Shown here in pieces: positions 24,558-62,557 of a DNA stretch of 64,000 nucleotides. Both the position numbers and the translations under genes were made by a program. The notes beneath the pieces were generated by a model that ran no database searches, had not been told where the DNA came from, and saw only the letters and a program-made list of their open reading frames with translations. How positions within the stretch are numbered: position 1 is the first letter of the stretch; the number at the start of each line of letters is the position of its first letter. The stretch covers positions 62,001 through 126,000 of the forward strand of contig CASDPF010000008.1 of NCBI GenBank assembly GCA_949282215.1, written 5' to 3'. The stretch comes from an uncultured bacterium (GTDB lineage: Bacteria; Cyanobacteriota; Vampirovibrionia; Gastranaerophilales; Gastranaerophilaceae).

Positions 24558-26270
24558 ATGTCAACAAGTATTGATTATTTTGACTATATACGAATTAGTA
24601 TAGCGTCACCTGAAAGGATTTTAAAATGGTCCTACGGTGAAGTTACTAAGCCGGAAACTATTAACTACCGTACATTAAAACCTGAAAGAGACGGCTTGTT
24701 CTGTGAAAGAATTTTCGGGCCATCAAAAGACTGGGAATGTTATTGCGGTAAATATAAAAGAGTAAGACATAAAGGTATCATCTGCGAACGTTGCGGTGTT
24801 GAAGTTACCGATTCAAAAGTAAGACGTCAGAGAATGGGGCATATTAAATTGGCAGCCCCTGTATCTCATATCTGGTTCTTGAAAGGTATCCCTTCATACC
24901 TAGGGTTGCTGCTTGATATGACTTTGAAAGATTTGGAACAGGTAATCTACTTTAACAATTATGTTGTAGTTGATGCTGGAGACAGTGATTTCAAAAAATT
25001 ACAATTATTAGGCGAAGAAGAATATGAAGATTATATGGCAGAGCATGAGGACTCTACTTTAAAAGTAAGCATAGGTGCTGAAGCTATTAAAGAACTTCTT
25101 GGCGAACTTGATATTAAACAAATGGCAGAAGAAATGAGAGCTGAATTAGCTGGAAATGTTACTTCAGTTCAAAGAAAATCTAAATTAATCAAAAGATTAA
25201 GATTATTAGATTCATTGATTTCTTCAGAAACAGATCCTACTTGGATGATAATGGATGTATTGCCAGTAACTCCTCCGGATTTGAGACCAATGGTTCAATT
25301 AGACGGCGGACGTTTTGCAACATCTGATTTGAACGATTTATACAGACGTGTTATTAACAGAAACAACCGTTTACAAAGATTATTAGAAATGGGTGCTCCT
25401 GAAATTATCGTAAGAAACGAAAAACGTATGCTTCAGGAAGCGGTTGATGCTCTTATAGATAATGGAAGACGCGGAAGAACCGTTGTCGGCCCTAACAACA
25501 GAGCATTAAAATCATTATCAAATATCATCGAAGGTAAACAGGGTCGTTTCCGTCAGAACTTACTTGGTAAACGTGTTGACTACTCAGGTCGTTCAGTTAT
25601 CGTAGTAGGTCCGCAATTGAGCTTGAATCAGTGCGGTTTGCCAAAAGAAATGGCAATTGAATTGTTTAAACCATTCGTAGTAAATAAATTGATTGAAAGA
25701 GGATACGTTCAAAATATTAAATCTGCTAAAAAGAAAATTGAACGTTCTGAAGCAATTGTATGGGATATATTAGAAGAAGTAATCGACGGACACCCGGTAT
25801 TACTTAACCGTGCTCCAACCTTGCACAGATTAGGTATTCAGGCATTTGAACCAAAATTGGTAGAAGGTCGTGCTATTCAGCTTCACCCATTGGTATGTAC
25901 GGCATTCAACGCTGACTTTGATGGTGACCAGATGGCTGTTCACGTTCCTTTATCAATTGAAGCTCAAACAGAAGCCAGAATGTTGATGTTAGCAACAAAT
26001 AACATCCTTGCTCCTGCTACTGGTAAACCAATTATCACACCTTCTCAGGATATGGTATTGGGTATGTATTACCTGACTATCTTGAAAAATGAAGATTCAG
26101 AACCGAAAGGTTACTTCTATAGCTTCCAAGATGCAATTTCAGCTCTTGAAGTCGGTGTAATTGATTTACATGACAAGATTATCGTTAGAGATGAACACGG
26201 TAAGAGATTTGAAACTACCGTTGGTAGAATTATCTTTAATGAAACAGTTAGAAAAGCAATTGCAAGCTAA
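24558..26270 (+). CDS. rpoC1: RNA polymerase gamma subunit (N-terminal part of beta-prime)
   Basis: 570 residues. Zinc-binding site [20 protein letters not shown] (about 54-73), and the absolutely conserved catalytic [16 protein letters not shown] (about 449-464) that chelates Mg2+. It ends after [10 protein letters not shown], exactly where cyanobacterial RpoC1 ends, so the split of beta-prime is natural and not a frameshift. RBS AAGGAGAAG. Confidence 0.97.
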
Positions 26271-26283
26271 GTTTGTTGAAAAT

Positions 26284-26305
26284 GCGGTTTGCGATAGCAA
26301 GCCGC
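26284..26305 (+). promoter_or_regulatory. Hairpin between rpoC1 and rpoC2
   Basis: GCGGTTTGC-gata-GCAAGCCGC, a 9-bp stem with one G·U pair, 14 bases after the rpoC1 stop and with no T run. A likely mRNA-processing or stabilising element in the operon. Confidence 0.5.
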
Positions 26306-26360
26306 TTAATACAAAACTTTTGATAACAAAATTTACAAAATAAATTGAGGAAATAATAGA

Positions 26361-29300
26361 ATGGAAACAACTTATTCAAATTCAAAACATAAAACGCTTG
26401 ATTTCATTAACAAAAAAATGGATAAAGGTGCTTTAAAATCATTTTTATCTCAGATGTATTTGGAATTTGGCGGAGCTATTACAGCAGAAGTTGCTAACAG
26501 TTTGAAAAACCTCGGTTACAAATATGCAACTAAATCAGGTACAACGATTTCAATTGCAGATTTGCAGGTTCCGGCTGTAAAAAAAGAACTTCTGGAAGAA
26601 GCTGAAAAAGAGATTGAAAAATCTACGACAAGATATTTAAAAGGAGAAATTACCGAAGTAGAAAGATATACAAAGGTAATTGACACTTGGTCAGAAACTA
26701 CAGCGAAATTAACATCAAGCGTAGTAGATAACTTTGATAGATTGAATCCTGTGTATATGATGGCATTCTCCGGAGCGAGAGGTAACTTATCACAAGTATC
26801 ACAGTTAGTTGGTATGCGTGGTTTGATGGCTGACGCACAAGGTCAAATCATTGACTTGCCTATTAAATCAAACTTTAAAGAAGGCTTATCCGTTACAGAA
26901 TACATCATTTCATCATACGGGGCTCGTAAAGGTCTTGTAGATACAGCGTTAAAAACAGCTGACTCAGGATACTTAACAAGACGTTTGGTTGACGTAGCTC
27001 AGGATGTAATCATCAGAGCTGATGATTGTCATACGACTAAATCAATTAATATGAAGCCGATTATGGATGGTGATACAATCATTGTTCCGTTAATCGACAG
27101 ATTATTAGGTCGTACCGTTGCAGAAGATATTAAAGATGCTGAAGGTAATGTTCTGGTTAAGGCCGGAACGACTATGGATCGTAAAGATATCAGAAAGATT
27201 TCTAATTTGAATCTGACTGAATTAAAAGTTCGTTCAGGTTTGACTTGCGGTCTAGAATACGGTATTTGTCAAAAATGCTATGGTTGGGCAATGACAACTC
27301 AAAAAATGGTTGATATCGGTGAAGCAATCGGTATTATCGCAGCTCAATCAATCGGTGAACCTGGTACACAGCTTACAATGAGAACATTCCACACAGGCGG
27401 TGTATTCAAAGGTTCAGGTGCTATGAAATCTGTTGAAGCAGCTATCTCTGGTGAAGTCGTTTCTAACGTCAAAACAAGAGAATTAAGAACTCGTCACGGT
27501 GATGTTGTAAGAGTTGCTAACTATGAAGCTGATATTCAGATTAAAGGCGAAAAGAAAACTGAAAAATATCATATTCCTGCAGGTTCAACTGTATTCTTTG
27601 AAAACGGAATGAAGGTTGAAAAAGGCTTTAAACTTGCAACTTATGAACCTGTATCACAAGGTGACGGTTCTCGTTTAACAGAAAAAGCTACAAAAGATAT
27701 CACTTCAGACTTATCCGGTGAAGTTCTTTATGAAGATTTCGTAGCTGATGAAAAGAAAGACAGACAAGGAAATATTTCAAGAACTACAAATAAACAAGGT
27801 ATTATTTGGGTTCTTGGAGGTGATGTATATAACCTTCCTGGCGGCTCTAAAGTCCTTGTTAAAAATGAACAAAAAGTTAAAGCAGGTGAAAAATTAGCTG
27901 AAACTTTAACTATTTCTGAACATGGCGGAGAAGTTCGTTTTGGTGAAGATCTGGTTATTGAAGATGTTAAATTTGAAGGTAAAAATATCAAGAAAGTAGT
28001 ACAAGGTAAAGAAATTACAATTGTAATCGCTTCATTGATGCCTGATAATGCATCTTTTGAACAAACTAAAAAAGAACAAATTTGGACAGTAGATAAAACA
28101 GGTGAAAAGTATATTGTAAAAGCTCCTGTAGATACTCCTGTTGAAAACGGTATGATTATCGCAGAGTTAATCGATGATGAATGTGCAGTTACATCTTCAG
28201 GTGAAATCAGATATGTTGATGTAGAAGTTGATGAAAATCAAATTATTACAAAACCTGGAGCTGTTGTATTTATTCCTGAAGAAATTCACCAAATTTCTAA
28301 AGACAGTTCTTTGAAAATGGTAGAAAACGGTACTTACGTAACAGCAGGTACGGAAATTGTTAAAGATGTATATTGTCATATCGACGGTATCGTTGAATTC
28401 AAAGAATACAACGAAATTATCCATGAAATTACTGTAAGACCTGGCGAATTACACACTTTAGCTAATGTCGGCGAATTGAAAGTTGATGAAGGTGAAGTTG
28501 TTAAAAAAGGTACAGTAATTGCTGATGGTATCAAGGCAAAAGAAACTTCCATAGTAACAATTATGGATTCAAGTGCTGATGATATTGATATTGACGATTT
28601 GGATGAAGAATTAGATACAAGTCTTTCTTTAGATGAGGACAGTATTTCTAATCAGCCAATTCAAATTCTGGTAAGACCTGTTCAAGTTCTTAATGTTGAA
28701 CAAAAAGATGTTTCAATTAAATTCAATACTACAGATGATTTGATTGATATTGTACCTGTTACTCAACTTCAATATAAAGATGGTGCAAGAGTTAGAAACT
28801 TAGACGGTTCAACTATTACAAGAACAAGTTTAGTTCTTCAAATGCAAGGTTATCTATCACACTTAAAAGGTATGGTTGAACTTGATGAAAAGAATAATTT
28901 AAGAATTGTTGTTCTTGAAAACTTGATTATCCGTCGTGAACAAGAAGGTAATGCTAAGGCTGCTACCGCTTTGCAAACAGAACTTCTTGTAAAAGACGGT
29001 CAGACAATCGATCCAAAAACACCTATTGCAAAAACTCAAGTTTTAGCTGTTAACGATGGTGTTGCTTCTATCAAAAACGAATCTGAAGAAGCAAGAAGAC
29101 TATTATTAACTAGTGAAACATATGAAACAGTTATTAAAATTGCTTCAAAACCGGTTGTTAAGAAAGGTGATTTTGTAAGATTAGATGGCGTTCTTTCAGA
29201 AAGTGGCGATAAGTCAACCGTTTCAGGACAGGTTGTATCAGTAAATAAAGGCGAAGTTACAATCAGAGCCGGACGTCCATACTTAATTAGCCCTGGTACT

Positions 29301-30224
29301 ATGTTACAGGTAGAATCAGGAGCATTGGTTCTCCGCGGTGATATGATTGCAACATTGGTATTTGAAAGACAAAAAACAGGTGATATCGTTCAAGGTTTGC
29401 CGAGAGTTGAAGAACTTCTAGAAGGTCGTAAGCCAAAAGACTGTGCTATCTTAGCAGAAGAAGACGGTGTTGCTGAAATTATTACTGATGATGATCTTCC
29501 AAGACTATACTTAGTAAATGAAAACGGAAGAACTGAAATCAAATACGCAATAGATGCAAATATTATCGTTCAGGATAAGCAGAAAATTTCAAAAGGTCAG
29601 CCTTTAACAAGCGGTCCTTTGAATCCTCATGATGTAATCAGACTTTGCGGTCCTGAAGCTGCTCAACAATATCTTGTAGATGAAGTACAACGTGTATATC
29701 GTTCTCAAGGTGTTGAAATTGCAGATAAACACGTTGAGATTATCGTTCGTCAAATGACTAAGAAAGTTAAAGTTCTTGATGCTGGTGATACAACGTTGTT
29801 ACCTGGAGAACTTGTTGAAATTCAACACTTTGAAAATGAAAATAAAGCTGTTGAAGAAAAAGGCGGAAACCTTGCTACTTGTGAATATATGCTGTTAGGT
29901 ATCACAAAAGCATCTTTGAATACTGAAAGCTTTATTTCCGCAGCATCATTCCAAGAAACAACAAGAATTCTTACAGAAGCTGCAGTAGACGGTAAGAAAG
30001 ATATGCTTCGCGGCTTGAAAGAAAACGTTATCATCGGTAGATTGATTCCTGCAGGTACAGGTTTCCACCATCTATCAAATGCTAACGAAGAAAAAGAACG
30101 CGAAGAAAGAAAACGTGCTGTTGCTCAGCGTAATCAGGCTAGAAAACCTTCTGCCATTTTAGAAGAAATTGAAGGTATGTTCGGTGCTCCTGATTTGACT
30201 TTGGATGACGGCGAAAACGAATAA
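26361..30224 (+). CDS. rpoC2: RNA polymerase beta-prime subunit, C-terminal part
   Basis: 1287 residues. Begins with the clamp/bridge-side region ([19 protein letters not shown]); the trigger-loop N half lies in [20 protein letters not shown] (about 320-340), and conserved C-terminal pieces [20 protein letters not shown] (about 1009) and [20 protein letters not shown] (about 1197). Some 650 residues rich in beta-barrel-like repeats sit between them: a cyanobacterial-type SI3 insertion in the trigger loop. RBS GAGGAAATAA. Ends the operon before a strong terminator. Confidence 0.97.
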
Positions 30225-30280: not shown

Positions 30281-31036
30281 TTACCAGTATTTTATAATAT
30301 CATCTTTGCTCAATCTTAAATAATCCATATTCCTGTGTCTTAAAATCCACCAACCGCAAGAATAGCCGTTACGCCAGCCTTCAACTGTTTCTGAATTGTT
30401 AGGATTACATAAATTGGGGCGACTTTCAAGTGTGAGTGTTCCTGTCCCACCAGGATTTACCATTGTGTATTTTGAGTCTTTTGTTATTGAAAAAATATGT
30501 AAATCCTGACCAATAATATTTGGCTTTTTGCTCCCATTCAGGTCAACGATAAAAGATACTGCATATTCTACATTTACTAATATTGCTTCTCCTGATGCAA
30601 GTTGAAATGTTTGTCCAACTTTGCCGTTATCTGATTGTGCAGCAAAATTAAACCCTCTAAATCCGTCTAAATCTTTATATGAGACATCAGGAAAACATTT
30701 TCCTCTGCCAAATCCTACTTCGCAATCTTTCAATTTAAGGTATTTTTTTAATTTATTGACGGTGTCAGATCCTGTTTGAGGCCAATTATCATAGTATCCG
30801 TATTCATCTGCTGCACTTCGGTATGCGTTATTTAATATACTATATACTCGAAGATATGATGTAACAAGTACTTTTTCTTGATATTTTTTTATTACTGTTG
30901 GCAGCGTCATTGCGGCTATAATTCCGATAATTCCTAGTGTAATAAGAACTTCAGCCAGCGTGAAGCCAGAAGATTCTTTGTTTTTTAACTTTGAGTCCGC
31001 AATGGGAAATGGCTTTTTAAAAAGCCCAAAACTCAT
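30281..31036 (-). CDS. Prepilin-like protein downstream of a poly-G leader
   Basis: 251 residues from the ATG at 31036. The leader is unusually long: 26 residues (MSFGLFKKPF…KNKESSG) before FTLAEVLITLGIIG. The loop is DLNGSKKPNIIGQDLHIF and the end MDYLRLSKDDIIKYW. The ATG at 31036 has no Shine-Dalgarno sequence; the nearest good RBS serves an ATG at 31112 whose short frame crosses a G12 tract. Slippage to 11 or 14 G would fuse that frame to this gene. No HTH gene is adjacent. Confidence 0.75.
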   Translation of the reverse strand: MSFGLFKKPFPIADSKLKNKESSGFTLAEVLITLGIIGIIAAMTLPTVIKKYQEKVLVTSYLRVYSILNNAYRSAADEYGYYDNWPQTGSDTVNKLKKYLKLKDCEVGFGRGKCFPDVSYKDLDGFRGFNFAAQSDNGKVGQTFQLASGEAILVNVEYAVSFIVDLNGSKKPNIIGQDLHIFSITKDSKYTMVNPGGTGTLTLESRPNLCNPNNSETVEGWRNGYSCGWWILRHRNMDYLRLSKDDIIKYW

Positions 31037-31058
31037 TATATGATGTTTATAAAAATGC

Positions 31059-31112
31059 TTATATTTGCCCCCCCCCCCCTGTATGGAATTCAGTCATAGC
31101 TTGTGTTTTCAT
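31059..31112 (-). CDS. Leader ORF crossing a G12 tract (possible phase-variation switch)
   Basis: From the ATG at 31112 (RBS AAGGAGGATACA just before it) the frame reads MKTQAMTEFHT, four Gly codons, then QI and TAA at 31061-31059. With 12 G the leader stops 22 bases before the prepilin ATG. With 11 or 14 G it runs in frame into the prepilin. With 13 or 10 G it ends in TAATG overlapping the prepilin ATG, a classic reinitiation junction. Whether the leader is a real peptide or the true prepilin start is undecided. Confidence 0.55.
   Translation of the reverse strand: MKTQAMTEFHTGGGGQI
31068..31079. repeat. Poly-G/C tract, 12 bases
   Basis: Twelve C on the plus strand (G in the transcript of the prepilin) in otherwise AT-rich DNA. 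It lies 33 bases inside the leader frame. Confidence 0.95.
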
Positions 31113-31142
31113 TGTATCCTCCTTGTGTATCCTTACATTTTT

Positions 31143-31171
31143 ATATTAACATTTTTTTATAATTTATTCAA
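31143..31171 (-). promoter_or_regulatory. Promoter for the poly-G leader and prepilin
   Basis: On the minus strand TTGAAT (31171-31166), 17 bp, TAATAT (31148-31143). It places the transcript start upstream of the leader ATG, so the G tract is transcribed. Confidence 0.5.
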
Positions 31172-31259
31172 GTTTTAATCTTTTTTTCTAAACCTGATGT
31201 TTGATTTTGTAAAAGTTTTCGATATTTTTTGCCGATAATGTTTTTGAAAGGAAGGTAGT

Positions 31260-31424
31260 ATGGCTAGAATTATTGAGGGTGAAAGACGGATTATTAAAAT
31301 GTCTGTTGATGATGTATTAAATATTGTAAGAGAATATCAGCAGATAACGCACAATTCTTGTTGTTATGAACATACAAGAGAATTATTGGCAAGGGCAGAT
31401 TTTTTTGTGCCCGAAGATGTCTAG
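31260..31424 (+). CDS. Small protein, 54 residues
   Basis: MARIIEGERRIIKMSVDDVL… ending DFFVPEDV, with a good RBS (AAAGGAAGG) seven bases before the ATG. Predicted mostly helical, soluble, with an adjacent Cys pair (NSCCYEH). No family recognised. It lies 65 bases before the thioredoxin-like gene but that gene seems to have its own RBS and promoter. Confidence 0.6.
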   Translation: MARIIEGERRIIKMSVDDVLNIVREYQQITHNSCCYEHTRELLARADFFVPEDV

Positions 31425-40465: not shown

Positions 40466-40494
40466 TTGCTATTAAGTAAAGAATATAATATAAT
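40466..40494 (+). promoter_or_regulatory. Promoter for the second poly-G leader
   Basis: TTGCTA (40466-40471), 17 bp, TATAAT (40489-40494), 24 bases before the leader ATG. Confidence 0.5.
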
Positions 40495-40518
40495 AAGAGA
40501 AAACGAATGGAGGTAAAT

Positions 40519-40578
40519 ATGCAAAATGCTTACATAGAGCGAATTTCGGGGGGGGGGGCTACCGTTTACAAGGTTTAG
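40519..40578 (+). CDS. Leader ORF crossing a G11 tract
   Basis: RBS GGAGG precedes ATG 40519. The frame reads MQNAYIERIS, Gly codons, then ATVYKV and stops at 40576-40578. With 10 G it would end at 40609, with 12 G at 40616; no frame reaches the prepilin at 40683. All stops fall before a hairpin at 40625-40642, so the tract length sets how close the terminating ribosome comes to it. A translated attenuator is the simplest idea; no such leader is known to me. Confidence 0.5.
   Translation: MQNAYIERISGGGATVYKV
40548..40558. repeat. Poly-G tract, 11 bases
   Basis: Eleven G in AT-rich DNA, 29 bases inside a leader frame, as in the locus at 31068-31079. Confidence 0.95.
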
Positions 40579-40623
40579 CAAGCCTTTTCAACTTATTCCT
40601 CCGATTTAAAATATAAAATTTTA

Positions 40624-40650
40624 GCCGTGTCAATCGTCACGGTGATTTTT
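40624..40650 (+). terminator. Weak terminator-like hairpin before a prepilin
   Basis: CCGTG-tcaatcgt-CACGG (40625-40642), extended by one G·U pair, then TGATTTTTGTT. A short stem with a T run, 40 bases before the prepilin ATG; a candidate attenuator. Confidence 0.4.
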
Positions 40651-40682
40651 GTTGTGAAAAATATTACAAAACGGAGGAATAT

Positions 40683-41405
40683 ATGAAAAAAGAAAAAGCT
40701 TTTACGTTAGCGGAAGTGCTGGTTACACTTGGAATAATCGGGATTGTTGCAGCAATGACATTGCCGGCATTAGTTGCAAAGCATAGAAAAAAGGTTTTAC
40801 ATACACAATTTTTAAAAGCATATAGCGATATACAAAATGCAGCTAAACGTTTTCAGGCTGATGAGGGGATTAGTGTTTATGAACATAGCCAAAAAGAAGT
40901 TGATACTATATCAACTAGTACCATTAAAGTTTTAATGAAATATTTTATTGGAGCTAAGAAAGGTTCTATTACAATTACAAGTTCTACAGTTGAAACTGTT
41001 CTTGGATTTAAACCTAAAAATTTAAAAGGCAGTCCTGTGACAGGGATTCCTTGCGACCGTTCTATAGTGACAGAAGAGATTGGTGGAAGATTTTTTTCAA
41101 TGGATGATCCGGTTAGTTATTATGGTGATCCGCCTAATGGACCTAAAATATGTATAGATATTAATGGGCGAAAAGGCCCTAATATATATGGTTATGATTG
41201 GTTTGTATTTACTTTTACTAAAGATGGAGGGGTTAAACCGTTTATAGGCAATAGTCTGCAAAATCTTGGCCCAGATATGCCTAATCCTGAGTCTGCTTGT
41301 AGCTATACTTATTCTAATGCTACATATACCTGTGCATATTTTGCAGTAACTGATACGAGTCCTGAGGATCCTTCAAAAAGCTACTGGACTGATTTTTTAA
41401 AATAG
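40683..41405 (+). CDS. Prepilin-like protein downstream of the G11 leader
   Basis: 240 residues. MKKEKA then FTLAEVLVTLGIIG, cut after Ala. It is clearly the paralogue of the prepilin at 57089: both have KHRKKVLHTQF-like and KRF segments, SIVTEEIGGRFF, DINGRKGPNIYGYDWFVFTF and an end with ACSYTYSNATYTCAYF…YWTDFLK. The paralogue is under an HTH regulator while this one has a poly-G leader instead. RBS GGAGGAATAT. The last nine bases overlap the end of tgt. Confidence 0.85.
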   Translation: MKKEKAFTLAEVLVTLGIIGIVAAMTLPALVAKHRKKVLHTQFLKAYSDIQNAAKRFQADEGISVYEHSQKEVDTISTSTIKVLMKYFIGAKKGSITITSSTVETVLGFKPKNLKGSPVTGIPCDRSIVTEEIGGRFFSMDDPVSYYGDPPNGPKICIDINGRKGPNIYGYDWFVFTFTKDGGVKPFIGNSLQNLGPDMPNPESACSYTYSNATYTCAYFAVTDTSPEDPSKSYWTDFLK

Positions 41406-58771: not shown

Positions 58772-61348
58772 CTAATTGAATAAATTAAGTTGTGGCACAG
58801 TAAGCTCTGTATCTGAGGATTTTTTGCGGGTAGATAAGTTGTTTGAGAAATCTCTCTGCATTTTATTCATAAGCTCTTGGGATCTTTTTATTACGACATT
58901 AGGCAGTCCTGCCATTTTTGCAACTTGAATCCCGTAACTTTTGCTTGCTCCGCCTTGAACAATTTTTCTTAAAAATTCAATTTCCCCATTTTCTTCAGCA
59001 ATTGTAATTCTGTAATTTTTAATTTGCGGGTATGTATTTGTCATTACGTTTAATTCATGGTAGTGGGTTGCAAATATCGTGCGGGCTTTAATTTTAGTCG
59101 CAATATATTCAGCAACAGACCAGGCTATTGCAACTCCATCGTATGTGCTTGTCCCTCTGCCTATTTCATCCAAAAGAATAAAACTTCTATCTGTAGCTGA
59201 ATTTAATATGTAAGATGTTTCAATCATTTCTACCATAAATGTAGATTGACCAAGAGTTAAATCATCGGATGCACCTACTCTTGTGAAAATTTTGTCAATA
59301 ACACCGAGTTTTACGTAATCAGCAGGAACCCAAGAGCCAATTTGGGCAAGTAAAGCTATTAGAGCATTTTGTCGCATATAAGTCGATTTACCTGCCATAT
59401 TCGGTCCTGTTAAAATCATAAACTGAGTTGAGTCTGTTGTATTGCATTTTAATTCTAAGTTATTTGCAACATATTCTCCAAGCGGTAGAATTTTTTCCAA
59501 AACAGGGTGTCTGCCGTTTTTTACAATAAAATCATCGGATTCATCAATTTCAGGTTTACAATAGTTGTTTTCTACAGCAACTTCCGCAAGGGATGATAAT
59601 ACGTCGGTATCTGCAACACATTCAGCAATTTCTCTTATTTTAGTTACAAATTCTTTTGAATATTCTCTGAAATCACAGTATAATTTATATTCTAATTCGG
59701 TAGATTTAAATTTTGCAGACAGAACATCATCTTCGTGTTTTTTCAATTCTTCTGTAATAAATCTTTCACCGTTTGTCAGAGTCTGTTTTCTGATATATTC
59801 TGCAGGTACCATGTTTAAATTTGAATTTGTGATTTCTATAAAATATCCGAATACTTTGTTATAGCTTACTCTTAAATTTTTAATACCTGTTTTTTCTCTT
59901 TCAGTTTCTTCAAATTCTTTAAGCCAGTTTTCCCCGCCTGTCAAAAGATCTCTAAAGTAATCTAATTCTCCGTTAACGCCTTGTTTTATAATTCCACCTT
60001 CTTTTATTACAATTGGAGGATTTTCAAGTAGAGTTCTTTCAATTAAAGACGTAAAATCGTTTATTTCTTCTATATATTCATTAATTTTGCTTAGTGGATT
60101 ATTTTCAAGTTGGTTTGCACAAGCTAATAATTCAGGCAGTATAGAAAGTGATTCTTTAAGACTGATAAAATCTCTCGGACTTGCTGAGCTGTTGCTTATT
60201 CTTGTTGAAAGCCTTTGGATATCATACATTTTCTCTAGTAATTCTATAATGGACTTTCTTAAATCTGTTTTTTCTACAAATTCAGTAATTGCATTTTGTC
60301 TTTTTAGGATTGATTTCACATCTTTTAAAGGCTGGCAAATACAGTTTCTTAAAAGTCTTGCCCCCATATTGGTTTTAGTTTTATCAACAGCCCAAAGCAG
60401 AGAGCCATATTTATTTTTTTCTCTTAAAGTTTCTACGAGTTCTAAATTTTTTCTAGTGCTTCCATCCATAATCATGTATTCAGAAAGCTCATAAGGTTCA
60501 ATCCTTTCAAATTTAGGAATATTATTTTTTAAAGTTTCCCAAACATATGCAAGGAGTGCTCCTGCTGCTCTAAATCCGAGTTTATACTTGGAAAATCCAA
60601 AACTCTCGAGACTTTTTGTTTCAAATACTGCTTTTAGGTTATTACTTGCAAATTCGGCAGAAAAAACATTTGCAGGTATCTTTGAGCAGTTATAAATTTT
60701 TTGAATGTTTTCAGGTAAATCAATTTTTTCTTCAGGGACAATTTGAAACGGCATTACTTTTTGTGCGACAGATGGTGCAATAATTTCTGATGGAGAAATT
60801 CTTGTGAGTTCAGCCAAGATTAAATTTAACGGAGCTTGGGTTGTTTTGAATTCTCCTGTTGAAATATCAGCGTATGCAAAACCGTACAGGTCGTTTTTTT
60901 CATCTTTAAACATTGCACAAATGTAGTTGTTTGTGTTTTGTTTTAAAAAGTCGCTCTCAGTAAGTGTTCCTGCCGTGATTACACGAGTGACTCCTCTTTT
61001 TACAAGTCCTTTTGCAAATTTAGGGTCTTCAAGCTGGTCGCAGATTGCGACTTTAATATTTTTACTTACAAGTTTTTCTAAATAGCCAGTAATAGCTTTA
61101 GCGGGAATTCCTGCAAGTGGAATTCTGCCATATTCTGCCCCAGCTTCTCGTCCTGTGAGGGTAAGCTCAAGTTCTTTTGAGAGCAAAACAGCATCTTCAA
61201 AAAATGTTTCATAAAAATCCCCCAAGCGATACAGTAATACTGCGTCAGGATTTAGTCTTTTATTTTCAAGATACTGCTGCATAACAGGTGTAAGTTTTGC
61301 TATGTCAACATCTTTAGTATTAATGTTATTGATTTCAGGTTTTGTCAT
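58772..61348 (-). CDS. mutS: DNA mismatch repair protein MutS
   Basis: 858 residues, normal. Mismatch-wedge motif GDFYETF (about 47-53), ATPase Walker A GPNMAGKSTYMRQ, Walker B LLDEIGRGTSTYDG, and FATHYHELN. The intact gene argues against general hypermutation as the cause of the poly-G tracts. The start lies about 20 bases after a TATAAT. Confidence 0.97.
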   Translation of the reverse strand: MTKPEINNINTKDVDIAKLTPVMQQYLENKRLNPDAVLLYRLGDFYETFFEDAVLLSKELELTLTGREAGAEYGRIPLAGIPAKAITGYLEKLVSKNIKVAICDQLEDPKFAKGLVKRGVTRVITAGTLTESDFLKQNTNNYICAMFKDEKNDLYGFAYADISTGEFKTTQAPLNLILAELTRISPSEIIAPSVAQKVMPFQIVPEEKIDLPENIQKIYNCSKIPANVFSAEFASNNLKAVFETKSLESFGFSKYKLGFRAAGALLAYVWETLKNNIPKFERIEPYELSEYMIMDGSTRKNLELVETLREKNKYGSLLWAVDKTKTNMGARLLRNCICQPLKDVKSILKRQNAITEFVEKTDLRKSIIELLEKMYDIQRLSTRISNSSASPRDFISLKESLSILPELLACANQLENNPLSKINEYIEEINDFTSLIERTLLENPPIVIKEGGIIKQGVNGELDYFRDLLTGGENWLKEFEETEREKTGIKNLRVSYNKVFGYFIEITNSNLNMVPAEYIRKQTLTNGERFITEELKKHEDDVLSAKFKSTELEYKLYCDFREYSKEFVTKIREIAECVADTDVLSSLAEVAVENNYCKPEIDESDDFIVKNGRHPVLEKILPLGEYVANNLELKCNTTDSTQFMILTGPNMAGKSTYMRQNALIALLAQIGSWVPADYVKLGVIDKIFTRVGASDDLTLGQSTFMVEMIETSYILNSATDRSFILLDEIGRGTSTYDGVAIAWSVAEYIATKIKARTIFATHYHELNVMTNTYPQIKNYRITIAEENGEIEFLRKIVQGGASKSYGIQVAKMAGLPNVVIKRSQELMNKMQRDFSNNLSTRKKSSDTELTVPQLNLFN

Positions 61349-61387: not shown

Positions 61388-61987
61388 ATGGGATGTTTAA
61401 GAAATTTAATAAGAGCAATAATAATCGCATTAGCGATAGTCGGTTTTTTGTCATTAGGCGGAAAAGAGTGGGTTATGAAATACACTTCTCAATGGTTTAA
61501 TCCGTCTCAAGAAACTATTTTAGAACGTGCTAAAAAGGTCGGAGATTTTTCCGGTATAAATGAAGAATTTGAGCTTGAAAAAGCTGCAGGCATGTTTGGT
61601 TATAACGCGGTTGTTGCTGAACATAAGGCTTCAGGTCAGAAATTAATTGTAGTTGATTCTAATAAAAAACCTTTGCTGACTAAAGAAGATTTGCAATCTG
61701 AAAATATAGAAGAAAAATTAAAAGATGTAATTTCAAAAGTAAAATATCAAGCTATTTCTATAGATGAGTTGCAGGTAACAAAACGCGGCAATATGAATTC
61801 ATACGGTAAAACCTGTCCTTTTGTCAGATTTAATGCGAAAGTAAGCAAGTTGCCAATAGGAGATATCTCTGGTATAATTTCAGTGGCGGAGACAAAAGAT
61901 GGTGAAAGCAGACTTTTGTTATCGGCTAACGAACGTTCTAAATATTCTCAATTAATATCAGAAGAATTTTTTAAAAACGTAAAATAA
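61388..61987 (+). CDS. Membrane-anchored hypothetical protein
   Basis: 199 residues: one N-terminal helix (RNLIRAIIIALAIVGFLSLGG) and an extracytoplasmic or cytoplasmic domain with no recognised family, containing LEKAAGMFGYNAVVAEHKASGQKLIVV and later GDISGIISVAETKDGESRLLLS. RBS AGAGGA. Divergent from mutS. Confidence 0.75.
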   Translation: MGCLRNLIRAIIIALAIVGFLSLGGKEWVMKYTSQWFNPSQETILERAKKVGDFSGINEEFELEKAAGMFGYNAVVAEHKASGQKLIVVDSNKKPLLTKEDLQSENIEEKLKDVISKVKYQAISIDELQVTKRGNMNSYGKTCPFVRFNAKVSKLPIGDISGIISVAETKDGESRLLLSANERSKYSQLISEEFFKNVK

Positions 61988-62052
61988 GTGTATGAAAATT
62001 TTTCTTGTGAATTGAGGGTTTATTAAAAAAGTCGAAGTGGTACTGTGCCGAG

Positions 62053-62076
62053 AAAAACGATTGAGTATCGTTTTTT
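62053..62076 (+). terminator. Terminator-like hairpin in repeat 1
   Basis: AAAAACGAT-tgagt-ATCGTTTTT followed by T. An identical copy 126 bp later at 62179-62202. Confidence 0.65.
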
Positions 62077-62084
62077 GAGAGGGT

Positions 62085-62204
62085 ATGAGTAACGAATACA
62101 TCCGCCGCGTAGACAAAGTAAAAAAATTGAAACTTGAAAAGAAAATATACGAAAAAGTCGAAGTGGCACTGTGCCGAAAAAAACGATTGAGTATCGTTTT
62201 TTGA
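62085..62204 (+). CDS. 39-codon ORF inside the repeat (doubtful)
   Basis: MSNEYIRRVDKVKKLKLE…EVALCRKKRLSIVF with GAGAGGG before the ATG. It is basic and helical. The second copy, from 62211, runs on into the tRNA and reads VEVAELVDAHDSG, a known type of false protein from tRNA-Leu. Coding is unproven; the units keep the reading frame only because they are 126 bp long. Confidence 0.25.
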   Translation: MSNEYIRRVDKVKKLKLEKKIYEKVEVALCRKKRLSIVF

Positions 62205-62282
62205 GAGGGTATGAGTAACGAATACATCCGCCGCGTAGACAAAGTAAAAAAATTGAAATTTGAAAAGAAAATATACGAAAAA

Positions 62283-62364
62283 GTCGAAGTGGCGGAATTG
62301 GTAGACGCGCATGATTCAGGTTCATGTGGTTAACGCCTTGAGGGTTCGAGTCCCTTCTTCGACA
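62283..62364 (+). tRNA. tRNA-Leu (anticodon CAG)
   Basis: The acceptor stem GTCGAAG pairs with CTTCGAC, the D arm has GGTAGACGC, the anticodon stem CATGA/TCATG holds the loop TTCAGGT (anticodon CAG), and the T arm AGGGTTCGAGTCCCT is standard, with A as discriminator. CCA is not encoded. It reads CUG. Confidence 0.95.
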
Positions 62365-62557
62365 TTTTGTTTTATTTGAAACATTATAGTATGGCAAAGA
62401 ATGGACGAGAACCACCAAGCGGAGTTTGGTCATGTTTCGAGCGGAAGTGAGCTGTGGCTGGAGTGCTTTTGTTTGGAGTGATGAAATCACGCACAAACAA
62501 AACACGGAATTGCCGTTAAACGCGAGCGACCAAGACAAGTCCCTTCTTCAACATTTT
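62348..62557. repeat. Duplicated tRNA-Leu 3' end flanking a GC-rich insert
   Basis: The 21 bases at the tRNA 3' end (62348-62368; GTCCCTTCTTCGACATTTT) recur at 62537-62557 with two changes, 189 bp away. The DNA between is clearly richer in G and C than the window and carries the hairpin TTTTGTTTG…CAAACAAAA (62467-62502) with an inner GTGAT/ATCAC stem. This looks like two attachment-site halves around a short remnant. No integrase is present. Confidence 0.7.

Follow-up and report, generated by a model that had tools for sequence, protein, structure and literature searches.

The contingency genes of Campylobacter and Neisseria carry a poly-G or poly-C run near the gene start, and the length of that run modulo 3 determines whether a full-length or a truncated product, for the most part a surface product, is made. 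For the Pil1 and Pil3 pili of Streptococcus gallolyticus, experiments have established a phase-variable leader-peptide attenuator, in which a GCAGA repeat lies in the leader ORF, the reading frame sets whether the stop falls far from or at a hairpin before the pilus gene, and the majority is off (PMC3894217). In the RepG-tlpB system of Helicobacter pylori, a small RNA recognises an untranslated G-repeat in the mRNA leader, and the resulting control is graded (PMC8295292). Here we describe a leader that crosses a run of 12 G ahead of a prepilin gene, and we put at roughly two in three the probability that it is a two-state, mostly-off contingency switch and one of about 80 G-tract loci of two designs. 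As in Campylobacter and Neisseria, a G-run lies near the start of a translated gene and its length modulo 3 decides the product; unlike there, the tract sits in a short leader before about 20 prepilins, the host belongs to the Gastranaerophilales, and the tracts are assembled nearly always off. RepG-tlpB is similar in that a G-repeat of variable length in the mRNA leader governs the gene behind it, but its control is graded and exerted by a small RNA, not by reading frame. In the literature that we searched, no paper ties Gastranaerophilales or Melainabacteria to phase variation.

The host genome measures 2.19 Mb in 45 contigs, is 98% complete and has a GC content of 33.5%; the window is the whole stretch of 64,000 nucleotides that was analysed, and other loci were read from the sequence stretches around their tracts. 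The features of the locus, together with those of a second G-run locus in the window, are collected in Table 1. At lower window coordinates, RpoC appears as two ORFs of 570 and 1287 aa (24558-30224, plus strand), an arrangement that resembles the split rpoC1/rpoC2 of cyanobacteria. At about 61971-62538 the window also holds overlapping ORFs with a repeated segment of about 40 residues, an apparent tandem duplication. From rpoC to the thioredoxin gene, most of the 12 congeners and 17 named relatives (Candidatus Gastranaerophilales/Scatousia MAGs) that were compared have no prepilin or long G-run, some of these loci being truncated by the end of a contig. Near that interval, a prepilin is present in L116, with a G10 leader, and in L118, with a G7 leader.

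Table 1. Window positions of the parts of the two G-run leader loci
Feature	Position	Strand	Basis
Leader Shine-Dalgarno GGAGG	31118..31122	-	sequence
Leader codons 1-11 (MKTQAMTEFHT), start ATG 31112	31080..31112	-	sequence
G12 tract (C12 on +), assembled 1 G above the in-frame length of 11	31068..31079	-	
TAA, end of leader at 9, 12 or 15 G	31059..31061	-	frame script
TAATG, where the 10/13-G frame stops in overlap with internal ATG 31036 (in frame, lacking a Shine-Dalgarno)	31034..31038	-	
Prepilin coding region in the frame that the leader enters at 8, 11 or 14 G; carries N_methyl signal GFTLAEVLITLGIIG	30281..31067	-	
Promoter-like TATAAT; -35-like TTGCTA at 40466	40489..40494	+	consensus match only
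Attenuator-locus leader Shine-Dalgarno GGAGG	40509..40513	+	sequence
Start of leader (MQNAYIERIS) with its G11 tract (40548-40558)	40519..40558	+	sequence
CCTCC element, complementary to prepilin Shine-Dalgarno	40598..40602	+	
Conserved hairpin followed by GATTTTTG, terminator-like	40624..40643	+	pattern
Prepilin Shine-Dalgarno GGAGG	40673..40677	+	
Prepilin under attenuator-type leader	40683..41405	+	

The earlier note on this DNA had described the strong ribosome-binding site (RBS), the leader start at 31112 and the G12 tract, and had assigned an outcome to 12 G, to 11 or 14 G, and to 13 or 10 G; all of these parts are present, and scripted frame arithmetic reproduces each outcome. With 9, 12 or 15 G the leader is short (17 aa at G12) and ends 22 nt 5' of ATG 31036; with 8, 11 or 14 G it is fused in frame to the prepilin (276 aa at G11); and with 7, 10 or 13 G its frame ends in the TAATG that overlaps ATG 31036. 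A change of one base in the tract thus toggles between full-length and truncated products, as expected of a contingency locus, and the tract in the translated leader decides whether the prepilin is read, its assembled length being out of frame, as had been claimed. ATG 31036 itself starts a 251-aa ORF with a prepilin signal (Pfam N_methyl, E=4e-6), whose product has a predicted prepilin cleavage before F at about 30964; no Shine-Dalgarno sequence was found upstream of this ATG, which again agrees with the first description. Both prepilins of the window, 31036 and 40683, score above the cut-off for PF07963 N_methyl and are type IV-like in this respect. No terminator-like site was found at 30900-31300, and with the hairpin absent the comparison with Pil1 and Pil3 does not apply to the 31112 locus.

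What the earlier note overlooked is recurrence, as the layout is found at about 80 loci of the genome, one more of them within the window (40509-40558). In the host genome, runs of 9 or more G number 89, where composition predicts about 0.4, and these are long homopolymers in translated regions, in leaders with RBS and ATG. Where the flanks were read, the plan is near-universal: a strong RBS, an ATG, about 10 codons, a run of 9 to 13 G, and then a prepilin (MKKKNAFTLAEVLITLGIIG and similar). Since about 171 sites of the host genome match the prepilin-signal pattern and about 80 loci have a G-run, roughly half of its prepilin sites lie behind a G-run. The loci fall into a fusion design (17-20, including the locus at 31112), in which one tract register joins leader and prepilin and the other two stop early, and an attenuator design (59). 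Viral contigs gave no copy. Many contigs of G000, G003 and G041 end no more than a few hundred bases from a G-run leader, probably owing to repeats or tract variation.

In both designs the assembled tracts are mostly off. Across seven genomes, only 8 of 82 fusion loci are in frame, against one third expected at random (nominal p=6e-7), and the attenuator loci of two species are in frame at 4 of 91 (0/53 in the host genome and 4/38 in G010, all four with G12), all compared genomes being draft assemblies or MAGs in which homopolymers are error-prone. The direction of the offset is strongly skewed within genomes: the host fusion tracts are one G too long in 17 of 21 cases, one too short in three and in frame in one, and those of G022 are all G10, one G too short (12/12). 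The assembled length at 31112 had been called the likely weakest state; the off-frame part of that statement stands, but the locus is not special, as nearly all such loci are assembled off. Moreover, of about 23 ortholog pairs of G000 and G010 that could be compared, a single one differs in register, with G11 (off) versus G12 (on), and the register is kept despite a run-length-changing substitution in L016/L151 and L028/L157. Free slippage would randomise the register, and something must therefore keep it in place, be it selection, a preferred tract length or a mechanism at the RNA level. Slippage combined with selection or length bias toward off is the simplest account. The host has a mutS gene in the window (58772-61348, minus strand) with all five Pfam MutS domains, so that any G-run instability would not simply be due to loss of MutS, and mismatch repair is probably not absent.

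The skew in register leaves room for slippage at the RNA level. Under such a program, the DNA length would be fixed and RNA polymerase or the ribosome would slip on the G-run in some fraction of passages, so that each cell would make a little of every prepilin from a gene that is off by one. The within-genome skew and the registers conserved between species despite substitutions are what such a program would produce, but the sign of the offset varies by genome and by design and some loci are in frame, which does not fit one fixed direction of slippage. Several near-identical paralogs in G041, moreover, differ by one G in the DNA tract itself, and the homopolymers on which RNA polymerase has been described to slip are usually runs of A or T (PMC3711429). 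On balance we consider programmed slippage unlikely.

The fusion loci also bear on how many states the switch at 31112 would have. Three functional states had been proposed, in which, at 10 or 13 G, the TAATG would let a terminating ribosome restart at 31036 and give an intermediate level of product. Stop-start translational coupling is well known in general, and the overlap at 31036 is real, but a start codon between tract and prepilin signal is missing in 13 of the 17 strict fusion loci, and none of the 17 has one with a Shine-Dalgarno sequence, 31036 included. The TAATG is nearly private to 31036: the only similar overlap among the fusion loci is a TAGTG at L028, and its ortholog L157 is without it. 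The proposal of a third state finds no support in this comparison, and we regard it as highly unlikely. The best reading of ATG 31036 is a plain methionine codon of the joined frame, which leaves a two-state switch. The prepilin frame is open from the tract onward at the fusion loci, and neither the conserved hairpin nor the CCTCC element of the attenuator loci occurs in any of the 17. This is the classical intragenic poly-G kind of design. It extends beyond pilins to a Stealth-type capsule phosphotransferase gene behind a G11 leader (L068:2724, plus strand) and its ortholog L135, whose tract is 1 G too long in both species; a capsule-type gene with the same switch fits surface variation.

In the two-state, mostly-off switch that we favour for 31112, a ribosome would start at the strong leader site and then cross the G-tract. 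At 8, 11 or 14 G it would continue into the prepilin and, at 11 G, make the 276-aa precursor, in which about 48 leader residues precede the peptidase site; at other lengths it would stop no more than about 35 nt past the tract, and the prepilin, having no RBS, would not be made. Slipped-strand mispairing in replication may occasionally shift the tract by one G, so that few cells would express the prepilin. DNA slippage at the level of the population, expression and pilus function are here what we infer, and the layout, frames, stops, conserved elements, register bias and family spread are read from the sequences themselves.

The attenuator loci have a more elaborate plan, in which the prepilin carries its own RBS and, between leader and gene, a CCTCC is found in 53 of 59 loci and a hairpin (CCGTG-8-CACGG) in 52 of 59. 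The hairpin pattern has 64 copies in the genome, and among the copies listed almost all adjoin attenuator leaders. Over 97 loci in two species, the G10 and G11 frames stop at most 25 nt past the tract in 78 and 95, respectively, and the G12 frame runs more than 45 nt past it in 88. In 80 of 91 loci the CCTCC is passed by the third frame alone, both off frames ending before it; this long frame ends at or in the hairpin in 66 of 86 and beyond it in 20. The two off-frame stop positions alternate between TAA, TAG and TGA, and stops are kept at the first in 85 cases against a column-shuffle mean of 81.7 (p=0.002) and at the second in 77 against 67.8 (reached in 0 of 5000 shuffles), p-values that are optimistic, as the paralogs are related rather than independent. 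Past the tract, column variation in the long leader frame showed no evident constraint on amino acids; the constraint seen on these leaders lies in stop codons and RNA elements.

Folding predicts an RBS accessibility of 0.05 with the CCTCC free, 0.61 with it occluded and 0.49 with it shuffled, and single-sequence folding places the CCTCC-RBS pair in 65 of 92 loci. RNAalifold on 97 leaders gave a weak consensus without that pair, and the base flanking CCTCC/GGAGG, G-C in 66 of 89, was uninformative on covariation; the hiding of the RBS by CCTCC is accordingly a folding prediction and not a covariation result. The hairpin appears terminator-like by pattern: it is followed by a mean of 5.7 T in the next 10 nt and has a weak stem (about -7.6 kcal/mol), and the window copy was the one terminator-like site scored, against 0.1 expected from shuffles. 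At these loci, the tract would set whether the leader ribosome covers the RBS-hiding CCTCC and moves onward to the terminator-like hairpin. One leader frame in three translates over the CCTCC, which, as predicted from sequence and folding, would uncover the prepilin RBS and perhaps prevent termination.

The nearest described mechanism to the attenuator design is that of Pil1 and Pil3, as here too the frame of a leader repeat sets where the stop falls relative to a hairpin before a pilus gene, and most copies are off. Unlike Pil1 and Pil3, the attenuator loci use a G homopolymer instead of GCAGA pentamers, number about 59 copies in one genome against two loci, add a CCTCC predicted to hide the RBS, and precede type IV-like prepilins rather than sortase pili.

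The G-run common to some 80 loci, with the Helicobacter pylori precedent (PMC8295292), would also suit a trans-acting small RNA with a C/U-rich loop that binds the runs and tunes all loci by tract length. No such RNA was found, Rfam gave no match above gathering score in the region, and the maintained stop codons and open in-frame fusions would be left unexplained, so that we give this model very little credence. Equally hard to credit is the view that sequencing errors or dead genes account for the tracts being out of frame, for although all genomes are draft or MAG and homopolymers are error-prone, the tracts recur at orthologous sites in a separately assembled genome, the fusion prepilin ORFs are open in one frame and the off-frame stops are maintained.

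Within the family, 106 of 383 genomes, from 17 of 41 genera, have the RBS-ATG-leader-G-run layout, with quite unlike leader sequences among its carriers; elsewhere in the class, about 1 of 79 genomes from other families has it. As for the attenuator cassette pattern, only the host species and G010 have it in abundance; G220 and G048 have one or two copies, and because of this limited abundance it looks like a recent expansion. The leaders of orthologous G000 and G010 attenuator prepilins often differ more than the prepilins do, as if cassettes had been exchanged between loci.

Taken at its widest, the analysis points to about 80 genes, nearly all prepilins, under individual G-run switches held in an off register, about 59 of them with an amplified cassette that would combine translational control at the RBS with transcriptional control at the hairpin. 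That these genes make up a system of stochastic pilin choice in relatives of the cyanobacteria that do not photosynthesise is a reading for which we see the odds as evenly balanced. Both designs yield precise predictions that are testable with existing metagenome reads, and the attenuator cassette offers an example of a phase-variable leader copied before many genes. Gastranaerophilales are common, mostly uncultured gut bacteria with a poorly known surface biology; if the reading is true, the G-run contingency set of this genome would, with about 80 genes that can each be switched separately, be a very large one, and the switches would help to explain why the genome keeps about 170 prepilin-like genes.
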